Assembly: GCA_016188785.1 (NCBI GenBank)
Contig: JACPHD010000034.1
Location: forward strand, 1 to 54,009
Length of the DNA: 54,009 nucleotides
From: Parcubacteria group bacterium
GTDB lineage: Bacteria > Patescibacteriota > Patescibacteriia > Patescibacteriales > GWC2-42-12
Reading direction: 5' to 3'
Part shown: in pieces, positions 24,868-49,401 of the stretch
Layout of the letters: each line of letters opens with the position of its first letter
How positions within the stretch are numbered: position 1 is the first letter of the stretch
The notes under the pieces: model-generated
The model's input: the letters and a program-made list of their open reading frames with translations, nothing else
Told to the model about the DNA's origin: nothing
Databases searched by the model: none
Position numbers and translations under genes: made by a program

Positions 24868-26151
24868 TTACTTTATATTCCACTCTCTTAATTTTTCCAT
24901 AACTTTTTTACCGGTTAAATTATTTTCCACATAATCATGATACGCCTGCCCTTTAATCCTCTCTAGCACAGTCTCGTTGCCTTTATGTTGTTTTAAAATA
25001 TCGTCAATCGCCTGATGAACTTCTTCGTGGCTAACGGAAATTTTCTCTAAATTAGCCACTTCTCTAATAATTAAAGACACTTTAACTCTCTTAACCGCGT
25101 CCGGCATTAGTTCCAGCATAATCTGCTCGCGCGTTTTTTTAAGATGTGTTAAATAGTCATTAAAATTAGCGCCCTGATTTTTAACATTGTATTCCAGCTC
25201 GCTCATCATAACCTCGGCTTCATGTTTTATCAGCGCTTCCGGAATATCGCCGAACTTTGCCGCGCTGATAATTTTATCTAGCATAGCCGCTTGGCTGGCC
25301 TGCGCTTCGGTTTGTTGTTTTTCCGCGAGCAAACTTTTTTTAATGTTGTTTCTTAATTCCTCGCTGGATTTCAGACCAAAACTTTTAACAAACTCTTCAT
25401 TAACTTCCGGCAGAACGCGATTATAGATCTCTTTGATCTCCACCTTAAACTCGGCCATCTTGCCGGCTAAATTTTTATCATGATAATCGGCCGGATAAGG
25501 CAGGTTGAATTCCCGCGTCTCATTTTTTTTCGCGCCGATTATTTTTTTATCAAAACCGGGAATAACATAATTTTTACCAATAATCAAACCGGCGCCTTTG
25601 CCCTGGCCGCCTTCTAGCGGCACCTTATCTAGAAAGATCTGAATATCCGTAATCACTCTATTCCCGTCTTTAACCGCTGAATCAGATATAGTTTCGTTGG
25701 CGCGCATTTCGCGCAATTCTAAAATCAGCTTTTCCGCTTCTTCATCTTTAACTTCAGGCTTATGCTCTTTTATTTTTAAATCTTTATAATTTCCCAGCTT
25801 AACTTCAGGCAAAAGCGTAATTATTATTTTGTATTCCAGCGGGTTGTCAGGCGCTAATTTAGTAATATTAACCTGCGGCTGGCCCACAATTTGGCCGGTT
25901 ATATTTTCTTTAATCGCTTTATCTAAAGTTTTATCAATGGCCATGCGCGCGCCGGCTTCTAAAATCGTCATTTCGCCGATAGTATTTTTTAATATTTCAT
26001 AAGGCGCTTTGCCCGGGCGAAAACCGGTAATATTAACTTCCAAAGAAACTTTTTCCGCGCCGCGCAAAATATACGGCCTGAATTCTTCAGCCGTAAGTTC
26101 CACGGTTAATTCAATCTGCGATTTGCCTAAATCTTTTTTGGTTATGGTCAT
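24868..26151 (-). CDS. tig: trigger factor
   Basis: N-terminal ribosome-binding domain (NITGFRPGKAPYEIL), FKBP-like domain, C-terminal domain. Confidence 0.93.
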   Translation of the reverse strand: MTITKKDLGKSQIELTVELTAEEFRPYILRGAEKVSLEVNITGFRPGKAPYEILKNTIGEMTILEAGARMAIDKTLDKAIKENITGQIVGQPQVNITKLAPDNPLEYKIIITLLPEVKLGNYKDLKIKEHKPEVKDEEAEKLILELREMRANETISDSAVKDGNRVITDIQIFLDKVPLEGGQGKGAGLIIGKNYVIPGFDKKIIGAKKNETREFNLPYPADYHDKNLAGKMAEFKVEIKEIYNRVLPEVNEEFVKSFGLKSSEELRNNIKKSLLAEKQQTEAQASQAAMLDKIISAAKFGDIPEALIKHEAEVMMSELEYNVKNQGANFNDYLTHLKKTREQIMLELMPDAVKRVKVSLIIREVANLEKISVSHEEVHQAIDDILKQHKGNETVLERIKGQAYHDYVENNLTGKKVMEKLREWNIK

Positions 26152-26207
26152 AAAATCGTCTATTTTTACCTTAAATTAGCTATTTTTTAATTTTTTAAAT
26201 TTTCAAC

Positions 26208-26235
26208 TTGACATTAGGAGTAAATATGCTATATT
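26208..26235 (+). promoter_or_regulatory. sigma70-type promoter of the allo-tRNA unit
   Basis: TTGACA - 16 bp - TATATT with extended -10 TG (TGCTATATT). Confidence 0.75.
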
Positions 26236-26241
26236 GATGAT

Positions 26242-26322
26242 AAGGTATCAGGCTGTGGAAACCTCATCAAAGGTGAACCATTGAAAACATCTTCTTCTTC
26301 GGGAGAGGGTGTTTTTGTTTTC
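26242..26322 (+). ncRNA. leader RNA complementary to the downstream tRNA, ending in a terminator-like hairpin
   Basis: 26246-26258 is the exact reverse complement of 26382-26394; 26260-26280 pairs with 26401-26424; hairpin AAAACATCTTCT/AGAGGGTGTTTT then T-rich run. Confidence 0.65.
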
Positions 26323-26357
26323 AATTTTCTTATGTTATTATAAATTTGCGGCGGACC

Positions 26358-26442
26358 GGAGGGTAAAGCGCCTCGGAGGCGCCACAGCCTGATAATCTGT
26401 TGGTTCGCTTTTGCGAATGAGGTTCGACTCCTCTGCTCTCCG
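26358..26442 (+). tRNA. class II, 8/4-type allo-tRNA-like gene, anticodon GAT
   Basis: Acceptor GGAGGGTA/TGCTCTCC (8 bp), selC-like D-arm GCGCCT-CGG-AGGCGC, anticodon loop CTGATAA, variable arm TTCGC-TTTT-GCGAA, T-stem GAGG/CCTC (4 bp) with loop TTCGACT, G73 then CC. Confidence 0.78.
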
Positions 26443-26454
26443 CCGCGCTAAAGG

Positions 26455-26479
26455 CCATCTCAACTAAGAGGTGGTTTTT
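26455..26479 (+). terminator. intrinsic terminator of the allo-tRNA unit
   Basis: CCATCTC-AACTAA-GAGGTGG-TTTTT. Confidence 0.8.
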
Positions 26480-26531
26480 AGTTGCTTTGCAATTTGCCTA
26501 AATCTTTTTTGGCGATGGTCATAATTTTTAA

Positions 26532-27554
26532 TTTGTCATTGCGGGCTTGACCCGCAATCCAGGGGGTAAGCCGTACAACATCAATTCTTTTTTAAAAATC
26601 CTGCTCTCTCTATCTGCGCCGCCTCTTGTCGCGACTCTTGAAATTCTTTTCTTTGGGATAATTCTTTAAACCAATCACTTTGATAAAAATCATTTAAAAT
26701 ATTTTTAGCATTGGAAATATACTCAACTATTTCTGGATTATCTTTATGCTCTGGGTAATAGTCAAACTCGGGAACCGCTCCTTGATATTTTTCAGCTTCA
26801 GGAATAGAAGAGATAATATCAGCCTCTATTAAATCTTCATGAATTCTCCCTGTTCTTAAACATTTTTCAAAATCAATAATTGCTTGATCTGGATACCCAA
26901 AAATAATTCCTTCAAATAAAATTTCAAGATCAACCGCTTTTGGAATTTTTCCTGTTTTTTGTGCTTCTTTTAAGGAGCTATCAAACTCTTTGCGCCATCT
27001 TATCAATCCGTCCTTTCCTAATTTACTATCATATTGAGGAACGCCGGGTATTCTGGTAATTTTTGACTTTCTTTCAACTCCTTTAAAATTTACAACTGTG
27101 ATGCCTGATATTATAGAATCTCCTTCCAATTTTTTTGGACAAATTATTTCGAGGCCAAAGTTTTCAAGTTGTGAATTTGCGTGCTCTAATTTTTCCATTT
27201 TTTCTTTATCTAATTTAATCCAAGGCATATCGGCATAACCTTTCATGCCGGACATTAACAAAATTATATTAGATTCAGCTAAGCGACAGCCAAGCTCTGG
27301 CCCTAAAATTTCATAAAATTTTGCAGCTAATTTTGTTGTTTCAATTCCTGATAACGGTTCCAGTTTTAACCTTTCATATTCTTCTGCGGCTTTTTTCGAA
27401 ATATCTATTAATTCATAATCAGATTGTGAATAGAATTTTTCTTCTTCCATATTTTAGTTACAATAAAGATAAAAATTTATTTCACTTAACTATCATTATA
27501 TAACACATTCCTACTGCTCCCTCCTGGATTGCGGGTCAAGCCCGCAATGACAAA
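26532..27554. repeat. 32-bp perfect inverted repeats bracketing one ORF
   Basis: 26532-26563 TTTGTCATTGCGGGCTTGACCCGCAATCCAGG is the exact reverse complement of 27523-27554. Confidence 0.9.
26581..27450 (-). CDS. hypothetical protein, 289 aa
   Basis: Long ORF, soluble, no family recognised. Confidence 0.7.
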   Translation of the reverse strand: MEEEKFYSQSDYELIDISKKAAEEYERLKLEPLSGIETTKLAAKFYEILGPELGCRLAESNIILLMSGMKGYADMPWIKLDKEKMEKLEHANSQLENFGLEIICPKKLEGDSIISGITVVNFKGVERKSKITRIPGVPQYDSKLGKDGLIRWRKEFDSSLKEAQKTGKIPKAVDLEILFEGIIFGYPDQAIIDFEKCLRTGRIHEDLIEADIISSIPEAEKYQGAVPEFDYYPEHKDNPEIVEYISNAKNILNDFYQSDWFKELSQRKEFQESRQEAAQIERAGFLKKN

Positions 27555-46060: not shown

Positions 46061-46385
46061 CTTAAAGATTGAAAACGCAACTTAACAATTTACGCTTTGT
46101 AAAATATACGCAGCAGCTTTTTACAAAGCATGTTTAGTGCTAACAGGCGCTAATTCAAAATTAGAAGAATTAATTTCTTCAAATACACCCAGTGAAATTC
46201 GCTTTGCGACTATTTCACGGGGTAAATTTTTGCGTGTTTTTTAAAATACGTAACATGGAGCTACCATGGAAAAAACTTATTGAGAGTTTGACCCCGCCTC
46301 GGCGGGGTGAACGCTGACTCAACTTCGTTGAGAGCGTTCCTAACTTTCGCTAGGATTCAAGTAAACCTAGTAAAATAAACTTATT

Positions 46386-46425
<40 letters not shown>

Positions 46426-47246
46426 TCTAAGGCATGCAAGTCGAACGCGCCTCCGCTCTTCACTGCGTGAAGAGCTTCGGACGCGCAAGCGCCCTATCAT
46501 AAAATAGGGAGCTTGCTCACCGTAGCTCATGCGTAGCGATGAGCGGAGGTGAGTGGCAAACGGGTGCGTAACACATTGGTAACTTACCCCGAAGTCATGA
46601 ATAAGCTTGCGAAAGCGGGTCTAATACATGATGGAAGCGAGGGGACTAAAGTCATTCTCGCTTAAAGCCTCGCCCCGCATCTGCGGGGCGGGGCGCTTCG
46701 GGAAAGGCCTATGGCCTATCAGCTAGTTGGCGAGGTAAAAGCTCACCAAGGCAACGACGGGTAGCGGGTGTGAGAGCATGGCCCGCCTCACTGGGACTGA
46801 GACACTGCCCAGACTCCTACGGGAGGCTGCAGTCAAGAATATTCCCCAATGGCCGAAAGGCTGAGGGAGCGACGCCGCGTGTATGAGGAAGCCCTTCGGG
46901 GTGTAAAATACTTTTAACCGGGACGAATCAATGACGGTACCGGTTGAATAAGGGGCTGCTAAACTCGTGCCAGCAGCAGCGGTAATACGAGTGCCCCAAG
47001 CGTTATCCGGATTTATTGGGCGTAAAGCGTACGTAGGCGGTTTATCGCATCTCCTGTTAAATCCCGAGGCTCAACCTCGGGGCCGCGGGAGAGATGGCTA
47101 AACTAGAGACCGGGAGAGGCAAGTGGAATTGCTGGTGTAGGGGTTAAATCCGTTAATATCAGCAAGAACACCTAATGTGAAGACAGCTTGCTAGAACGGT
47201 TCTGACGCTAAGGTACGAAAGCGTGGGGAGCGAATGGGATTAGATA

Positions 47247-48306
47247 ATCCATGCCCGCTCATAAAATATAGGTAAAAGGTGTCTCTTTTGACGGCGACGT
47301 CAAGATGAAAATTCAGCTATATCGGGGAAACTCCTGACAAAATGAGGTTTTACTGGCCTCGCCAGGACAATCCCGAGGGAAGTTCCATGGCCCGAAAAGC
47401 CATGATGAACCCCGTAGAGACTATGAAGTTGGTTTCGAGATAGAAGGCGCATTAATTAAAATATATGAATCATTATGTGCCTTTGTCGGATCGCGCCAAG
47501 GAAATTATTCTTGGCTCGCTTTTAGGGGATGGATCATTAAAGATCCATGATAAATACAAGAATGCCAGATTTTCTTTCAGGCATTCCGAGGCGCAAAAAG
47601 ATTATTTCTTCTGGAAAGTAAAAAATCTGAAAGAAATATCTTCAAAAAATTGCGTTTTTTGGCAGGAAAACAACGGCGGATTCAGTTCTAATAAAAAAAT
47701 CAGGTATCAAAGCTTGGCCTTGCCGTCGCTTACTGAAATTTATCAACTTACCCATAAGAAAAAAAAATTGCGTATCAGCCGGAGATGGCTGAACAAAATG
47801 ACAGCTCTGTCATTGGCTATTTGGTGGTTTGATGACGGTTCGCTGATTGCCAACGGCCGCAAAGGAGTATTTTGCACAGATGGTTTTGACGAAAAAAGCG
47901 TTAAAACTCTAGCGCAATACTTCTTGGTCGTTTGGAAAATCAAGACTAAAGTCGCGCCAATTACCAGAAAAAGGCGGGGGGAGCAGAAAAAATATTGGCG
48001 GCTCTGGCTGTATTCAACGGAAGAGCTGAAAAAATTTCTGCGGCTGATATTGCCGCAGACGCCGACGGCAAGCGCTTTGTCGAAAGTCGCGCTTCTCTAC
48101 AATGATCAACAACTTCAACAACGCTGGATATCTGAAATAGTTCAGTTAAGCCGTTTTTCTCTATCTGCCATTATGGCAGAATATGAGAAAAAACGCGCTA
48201 AATGGAGCCGTTACAGATAAAGATCTAGTCCGGACTTCATGGTAACATGAAGAATGGGACAGAAATGTTCCCATCAATTGCTAAAAGCAATTTGCAACAA
48301 ATTCAA
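47247..48306 (+). other. group I-like intron in 16S rRNA (E. coli about position 794), splice sites inferred
   Basis: Exons ATTAGATA | CCCCAGTAGTCC; P7-like GAGACTA (47416-47423) and AAGATCTAGTCC (48219-48231) flank the endonuclease ORF; P9-like CTTCATGGTAACATGAAG. Confidence 0.85.
47465..48220 (+). CDS. LAGLIDADG homing endonuclease
   Basis: IILGSLLGDGSLKI and LSLAIWWFDDGSLIANGRKG dodecapeptide-type motifs. Confidence 0.93.
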   Translation: MNHYVPLSDRAKEIILGSLLGDGSLKIHDKYKNARFSFRHSEAQKDYFFWKVKNLKEISSKNCVFWQENNGGFSSNKKIRYQSLALPSLTEIYQLTHKKKKLRISRRWLNKMTALSLAIWWFDDGSLIANGRKGVFCTDGFDEKSVKTLAQYFLVVWKIKTKVAPITRKRRGEQKKYWRLWLYSTEELKKFLRLILPQTPTASALSKVALLYNDQQLQQRWISEIVQLSRFSLSAIMAEYEKKRAKWSRYR

Positions 48307-48441
48307 CCCCAGTAGTCCACGCCGTAAACGATGGATGCTGAGCATTGGAAGTATCGACCCTTCCAGTGCTGTCTACCTAAGTTAACACCTTAAGCATCCC
48401 GCCTGGGGAGTACGAGCGCAAGCTTAAAACTCAAAGGAATA

Positions 48442-48485
<44 letters not shown>

Positions 48486-48567
48486 AGTAAGCGAGGAACC
48501 TCACCAAGGTTTGACATCCGGCTGCAGACCCCTGGAAACAGGGGAGCCTTCGAGGGTGCCGGACAGA

Positions 48568-48604
<37 letters not shown>

Positions 48605-49277
48605 ACCGTTAATTCGGGAAACGAGCGCAACCCCTATCCTATGTTTCATGTGTCATAGGAAACTGCCCGCTTTAAGTGGGAGGAAGGTGGGGATGACGTC
48701 AAATCAGCATGGTTCTTACACCTTGGGCGACACACGTGCTACAATGGGAAGCACAAAGGGACGCCAAAGCGTAAGCTGGAGCAAATCCTTTAAAACTTCT
48801 CTCAGTTCGGATTGAGGTCTGCAACTCGACCTCATGAAGCTGGAATCGCTAGTAAACGTGGATCAGCCACGCCACGGTAATGCCCGAAGGCCCCGCATTT
48901 GCGGGGACGAAGGTAGGATCGATGATAGGGACGAAGTCGTAACAAGGCATCCGTAGCGGAAGCTGTGGATGGATCACCTCCTTTCTAGGGAGAAAAAAGA
49001 ATTTTCGATTGCAGATTTTCGATTTACGATTTCTGCGCGGAAATTCATAGTCGAAATTTTAGAGGCGAATTTGATTTTAAATCTAAAATCTAAAATCTAA
49101 AATCTAAAATTACCAGAGTTAGCGCCTGTTAGTACTAAATATAGTTAAAAGTTATAAAGTCCATAAAGTCAAAATTCAATGACTTTAAAGACTTTAGATT
49201 TTCAGACTTTTGACTCAAACAAATAGTTTATGGGCCTATTTGTCCCCCCTTCGCTAAAGCTACGGAGGATAAATTAT

Positions 49278-49327: not shown

Positions 49328-49401
<74 letters not shown>

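Follow-up and report, generated by a model that had tools for sequence, protein, structure and literature searches.

Why should a tRNA gene be accompanied by a stretch of DNA that is complementary to two arms of the tRNA it encodes? The question is raised by a locus in a contig of 54,009 nucleotides (the window, i.e. the whole stretch of DNA analysed here), which is part of a 1.0-Mb Patescibacteria-like genome (G000). An earlier sequence-only reading of this DNA had described the complementary stretch as a leader RNA, and had proposed that it sequesters or gates a potentially mistranslating tRNA.

Organization of the locus

The locus is a two-gene, protein-free cassette, in which each gene possesses its own promoter and terminator (Table 1); the antisense unit and the tRNA unit are both short. 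The promoter and the terminator-like hairpin previously ascribed to the small RNA were both found, but the label "leader" is misleading, because the small RNA constitutes a separate transcription unit. The 5' part of the antisense RNA is single-stranded in the predicted fold.

The second gene encodes a tRNA with an 8-bp acceptor stem (GGAGGGTA/TGCTCTCC) and a 4-bp T stem (GAGG/CCTC), an 8/4 shape that is kept in 25 loci, together with a long 5-bp variable arm (TTCGC-TTTT-GCGAA) and a small, tRNA-Sec-like D loop (D stem GCGCC/GGCGC, 5-nt loop). G73, an acceptor similar to that of the host tRNA-Ser and the long variable arm point to serine identity, in contrast to the isoleucine anticodon GAU. 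Judged by its sequence, this allo-tRNA has the features of a decoding tRNA: U33, a normal T loop and GG in the D loop. Since the window also contains a normal tRNA-Ile(GAU), at position 49328, the allo-tRNA is not needed for decoding.

Two further observations concern the surrounding DNA. A dispersed palindromic repeat (GTCATTGCGGGCTTGACCCGCAATCCAGG), of which many copies exist in relatives, adjoins the cassette at window positions 26522-26573. The 16S rRNA gene at 46380-48984 covers 2.6 kb (Rfam) and must therefore hold about 1 kb of insertions; insertions into this gene are common in Patescibacteria.

Table 1. Coordinates of the cassette and its parts in the window.
Feature	Position	Strand	Remarks
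Direct repeat of 33 bp, imperfect (31/33 identical), left copy	26121..26153	.	contains the start codon of the trigger factor gene
Whole cassette (antisense RNA gene and allo-tRNA gene)	26154..26491	+	about 338 bp; homology with G003, G006 and G008 spans 26162-26486, at other genome locations there
Antisense RNA promoter, sigma-70-type, TTGACA-16-TATATT, extended -10	26208..26235	+	11/12 matches; TG ahead of second hexamer; same box in nearly all related loci
Antisense RNA, about 76 nt	26242..26317	+	start inferred from promoter
Segment A'	26246..26258	+	pairs with anticodon loop and 5' strand of anticodon stem; covariation in 33 loci
Segments T' then V'	26260..26280	+	3' side of T arm/variable arm first, then 5' side of variable arm
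Antisense RNA intrinsic terminator	26282..26317	+	
tRNA gene promoter, extended -10 (TGTTATTAT)	26333..26341	+	TGnTATnAT in relatives; by eye
8/4 class II allo-tRNA	26358..26444	+	anticodon GAU at 26391-26393; G73 at 26442; CCA not encoded
Target A, anticodon arm 5' strand and loop	26382..26394	+	
Target B, variable arm and T arm 5' side	26401..26424	+	
tRNA gene terminator, 7-bp stem with one G-U, then TTTTT	26455..26479	+	by eye; similar hairpins in relatives
Direct repeat of 33 bp, right copy	26492..26524	.	

Pairing between the two RNAs

Segment A' (TATCAGGCTGTGG) is perfectly complementary to target A (CCACAGCCTGATA) over 13 nt, and the helix can be prolonged, across one interruption, to about 16-17 pairs (RNAduplex, -26.5 kcal/mol); a second helix forms between the T'-V' segments and target B (-28.2 kcal/mol). 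Both helices had been noted before, as had the order of their segments, A' B' ... A B, and all were recovered as described. The two helices sum to -54.7 kcal/mol and, with the remaining structure, the complex is about 22 kcal/mol better than the separate folds, a figure that rests on rough energies and stands before topological cost. With both helices formed at once, the predicted geometry is a crossing, pseudoknot-like complex.

Read from its 5' end, the antisense RNA has the segment order A'-T'-V', whereas a plain antisense RNA would have the order T'-V'-A'. T' and V' follow the normal antisense order, so that the whole RNA corresponds to a plain antisense RNA that has been circularly permuted. 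The permutation may be either an escape from a long continuous, RNase III-sensitive duplex, or a way to establish both contacts without threading. Circularisation of the small RNA, which would reverse the permutation, was considered as well, and no support for it was found.

The complement at the allo-tRNA exceeds chance. When the best complement to the anticodon arm was sought within 350 nt of each tRNA, the score had a median of 35 and a minimum of 27.5 among 23 allo-tRNAs, against a median of 18 and a 95th percentile of 23.3 among 210 other tRNAs. One control among the latter reached 34.5 (locus L031, tRNA-Arg(gcg)); it was rejected as a real pair, its complement being a chance match inside a DEAD-box helicase gene.

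Covariation and partner specificity in relatives

A covariance model built from seven of these tRNAs retrieved 18 loci in 12 of the 111 genomes of the order; additional loci turned up in the class, in the phylum and in Chloroflexota. The cassette itself is spread through Patescibacteria and is present in a few Chloroflexota, and the named relatives found by pattern comprise Parcubacteria, Falkowbacteria, Magasanikbacteria, Uhrbacteria and Kuenenbacteria. All allo-tRNAs retrieved from the order and class of the window are adjoined by a promoter and a complementary RNA, with a clear terminator in nearly all cases.

The stems of these tRNAs vary widely between loci, and the small RNA changes along with them. 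In 33 loci, positions -8 to +5 of the anticodon arm are 88-100% paired (Watson-Crick or G-U), and most stem positions display three to four types of Watson-Crick pairs. The anticodon is kept while the stems drift (U33 in 33/33, GAU in 28/33): decoding has apparently been kept and the small RNA has followed the tRNA. Such conserved anticodons on drifting stems argue, at the sequence level, that decoding matters. The sequence-only reading had named tRNA arms that change without a matching change in the small RNA as the observation that would speak against it; across the relatives, both were found to covary.

Exchanging the partners between loci leads to the same picture. For the anticodon arm, own partners score 35.4 and permuted partners 18.1 +/- 1.2, the best of 10,000 permutations reaching 23.8; for the variable and T arms (25 loci), the corresponding energies are -29.0 and -17.1 +/- 1.0 kcal/mol. 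Likewise, the sets of genomes with two or three cassettes cross-pair poorly, and one genome can hold several poorly cross-pairing copies that share the anticodon GAU. The predicted pairing of antisense RNA and tRNA is thus supported by strong covariation, and covariation and swap test together favour the earlier suggestion of a dedicated antisense RNA directed against a potentially mistranslating tRNA.

Not every allo-tRNA has such a partner: an antisense RNA is missing within 350 nt of at least four Ser-type allo-tRNAs of Chloroflexota (L193, L195, L196 and L197), whose surroundings are HNH or phage-like. These four and L205, also from Chloroflexota, are 8/4-like, and their anticodons include those for Pro, Ile and Leu; L205 likewise lies in such surroundings and has no antisense RNA within that distance.

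Antisense RNAs without their tRNA are rare, with one candidate: an orphan unit at L011:1400-1560 (G006:C9) consists of promoter, small RNA, terminator and tRNA promoter, with the tRNA body missing, and its A' segment fits a GCG anticodon loop. A promoter-anchored pattern for orphans of the GAU type, applied to 109 genomes, matched ordinary promoters, and 0 of 16 promising places proved to be an antisense RNA. At L165, a second unit of promoter, small RNA and terminator lies about +100 to +210 downstream of the tRNA; its 5' part (GGTTATCAAGCGCGTGG) would be suited to a further tRNA with a GAU anticodon, which was not seen in the locus.

Amino-acid identity, anticodon and a second tRNA scaffold

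Ser-type features (long variable arm, G73) are found in most members with GAU, GAC and UAA anticodons, and two members with the anticodon GCG (L021, L023) carry the alanine signature G3:U70 and A73. The control scan of tRNAs additionally yielded a normal-shaped tRNA with alanine signature, Val anticodon and antisense RNA (L039). A search with this unit led to a second family with GAC, GAU, UAU and GCG anticodons (L039:1075-1148, minus strand, and L267-L304), whose normal-shaped tRNAs combine G3:U70 and A73 with non-Ala anticodons and have an antisense RNA of their own. The small RNAs of this family target the 5' strand of the anticodon arm, the 5' strand of acceptor and D arm, and the anticodon loop with the 3' strand, in this block order where three blocks could be resolved (L277, L278, L280, L284), which is again a circular permutation. 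Own partners score 32.9 and permuted ones 18.2 +/- 1.3. In L274, two Ala-identity units stand in tandem and do not cross-pair.

The L039 query had included the small RNA, and the search was therefore redone with a tRNA-only pattern. It retrieved 13 Ala-identity tRNAs. An antisense RNA accompanies 12 of them, and that of the remaining one appears decayed; the 12 include L295, which lies just below the score threshold used elsewhere, yet possesses promoter, complement and terminator. The decayed-looking antisense RNA lies upstream of a GAC tRNA (L294; CTGTTT--CAC versus CTGTTTGTCA). We regard this family as an independent case, in which a second, unrelated tRNA scaffold has the same kind of partner.

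No antisense RNA was found at true tRNA-Ala genes with the same acceptor, and the partner is likewise absent from phage 8/4 tRNA-Ser(GCU), tRNA-Sec and tRNA-Ser. Taking both types together, a strong complement to the anticodon arm lies near 34 of 39 mismatched but only 5 of 66 cognate tRNAs (p = 5e-17); for the Ser type, which was retrieved without using the small RNA, the numbers are 22 of 26 and 4 of 53 (p = 9e-12), both p-values treating loci as independent, an assumption that related genomes violate. Of the five "cognate" positives, at least two have a mis-called anticodon (L018, GAU; L279, probably GCC). The putative antisense RNA thus accompanies tRNAs whose predicted amino-acid identity and anticodon disagree.

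Mobility and genomic neighbourhood

In G000 the cassette is flanked on both sides by a 33-bp piece from the start of the trigger factor gene. In G001, G003, G006 and G008 this gene has no cassette at that place, and G003, G006 and G008 carry the cassette elsewhere in the genome; this comparison indicates that it has been translocated as a unit. Two relatives have the cassette bracketed by inverted repeats of 27-32 nt. Its presence is sporadic: 12 of 111 genomes of the order possess it, and two genomes of the same genus lack it. The neighbours are housekeeping genes (trigger factor, clpP, thyA/folA, glycosyltransferases), and neither a conserved partner protein nor a defence island was found among the neighbourhoods compared, which have no protein gene in common. 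At L010, L025 and possibly L017 and L074, cassettes appear beside genes with LamG-type, surface-protein-like ends, which are possible insertion hot spots.

Proposed mechanism and alternative explanations

In the mechanism that we propose, the antisense RNA would act in trans: its unstructured 5' end would seed on the 7-nt anticodon loop and then invade the anticodon stem, and its second part would open and cover the variable and T arms, which are needed by SerRS and EF-Tu. The duplex would block decoding, recognition of the variable arm by SerRS and binding of EF-Tu, so that the tRNA is silenced; were the antisense RNA lost or degraded, the missense tRNA would be set free. The freed tRNA, if charged, would place Ser at Ile codons, and the Ala-identity tRNAs would place Ala at Val, Ile or Arg codons. 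In E. coli, published allo-tRNAs with this shape do place Ser or Ala into proteins (PMC7609411). For the present tRNA, we infer silencing, charging, toxicity and neutralisation. That the antisense RNA silences a missense tRNA, its role being likeliest that of a toxin-antitoxin-like or abortive-defence pair, we consider probable. Several observations count against this explanation: orphan antisense RNAs would be expected for a toxin-antitoxin pair but are rare, at least four Ser-type allo-tRNAs of Chloroflexota lack the partner, the two helices together would have to form a crossing complex, and no defence-gene context was found.

The complementarity can be explained in several other ways. The sequence-only reading had allowed for a pseudoknot in cis or a duplex in trans, and in the former case both segments and the tRNA would belong to a single transcript and fold together, as a pseudoknot or by a T-box-like attenuation. 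In Patescibacteria the small RNA mostly lies just upstream on the same strand, where read-through is possible; however, a terminator and a separate tRNA promoter lie in between, and in six loci (L019, L020, L103, L149, L166, L194) the order is reversed, with the tRNA first and the small RNA after it. Downstream copies and separate units speak for action in trans; a leader or a pseudoknot in cis cannot account for the loci in general, and we regard a cis leader as very improbable. Inverted duplication of a tRNA gene can likewise create complementary segments nearby, and these might be a DNA-level relic with RNA function absent. The permuted order, the compensatory changes in every lineage, the conserved promoter and terminator and the lack of a complement at cognate tRNAs are all contrary to this, and the covariation already refutes such a relic, to which we attach a vanishingly small probability. 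The tRNA could also be the regulator, i.e. a tRNA-shaped sponge titrating a small RNA whose true targets are mRNAs. tRNA-derived sponges of small RNAs exist. According to a review (PMC7609411), some known soil allo-tRNAs were not active in translation. Yet the pairing segment varies freely together with the stem of the tRNA, a drift that a conserved mRNA target would forbid, and the anticodon loops have been retained as translation-competent, so that a sponge appears improbable to us.

The near alternative to a toxin-antitoxin-like role is a regulated mistranslation or suppressor switch: the host would use the missense tRNA conditionally, with the antisense RNA setting the timing, and no addiction or defence module would be involved. 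Conditional mistranslation can benefit bacteria, both RNAs have strong promoters of their own, and the anticodon is conserved. On the other hand, the sporadic presence of the cassette, even within one genus, its translocation, the fact that one genome may hold several copies that share the anticodon GAU yet do not cross-pair, and the lack of fixed neighbour genes speak against a switch, and we judge the switch possible but unlikely. The toxin-antitoxin-like role can be extended to a more general proposition, namely that mobile RNA-only toxin-antitoxin cassettes exist in Patescibacteria and some others, with a mismatched tRNA on at least two unrelated scaffolds as the toxin and a circularly permuted, tRNA-specific antisense RNA as the antitoxin; its chances of being right seem to us about even.

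Comparison with known systems

Allo-tRNAs were first described in Acidobacteria, and their purpose has been an open question since their discovery. With the same acceptor, a cognate anticodon comes without and a mismatched anticodon with an antisense RNA; this contrast would give allo-tRNAs a reason, and it is testable with two short RNAs. The general proposition given above, if true, would mean a class of antisense RNAs aimed at tRNA and a class of toxins acting by missense decoding. The contrast also suggests that missense decoding itself is perhaps used as a weapon or switch. The antisense RNAs would moreover offer orthogonal, naturally evolved off-switches for suppressor tRNAs.

The tRNA itself is a member of the known allo-tRNA kind: with the 8/4 and 9/3 allo-tRNAs (Mukai et al. 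2017, reviewed in PMC7609411) it shares the 12-bp acceptor branch (as 8/4), the long variable arm and a non-cognate anticodon on a tRNA of Ser identity, or, in other members, of Ala identity with G3:U70. In contrast to the present case, that review mentions neither an antisense partner nor members from Patescibacteria or Chloroflexota, and a full-text literature search for allo-tRNAs together with antisense RNA returned nothing relevant. The tRNA-Sec-like tRNAs and the phage 8/4 tRNA-Ser likewise have the 8/4 shape and a long variable arm, but their anticodon agrees with their identity and an antisense RNA is absent. T-box riboswitches also read a tRNA anticodon by means of RNA. However, T-boxes recognise three specifier bases together with the NCCA end, and what they control are mRNAs, whereas here 13-19 bp of the anticodon arm and the variable/T arm would be paired and the output is the tRNA itself. 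A T-box or other Rfam riboswitch was also rejected as a candidate, as no T-box was among the Rfam hits at gathering thresholds, and the pairing extends over 13 or more nt and misses the 3' end of the tRNA.

Type I antisense antitoxins (hok/Sok and others) resemble the antisense RNA in being strongly transcribed, trans-acting and adjacent to their target, which in their case is the mRNA of a toxic peptide. The cassette would work most like a type VIII toxin-antitoxin pair (CreTA, SdsR-RyeA), in that both partners are RNAs from two adjacent noncoding genes, one predicted to be harmful and one to neutralise it, although membership requires toxicity and neutralisation, which are here only predicted. 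CreT sequesters tRNAs and CreA acts via Cascade (PMC12737573, PMC8501985); by contrast, the predicted toxin is here a tRNA itself and the antitoxin a base-pairing antisense RNA. An antisense RNA gene with a tRNA as its dedicated target was not encountered in the open-access literature searched. To our knowledge, no such gene is known. As far as that literature shows, the antisense partner is thus undescribed and the tRNA a new target class for antisense RNA; on a stricter reading, the cassette may be a new variant of the type VIII toxin-antitoxin systems.
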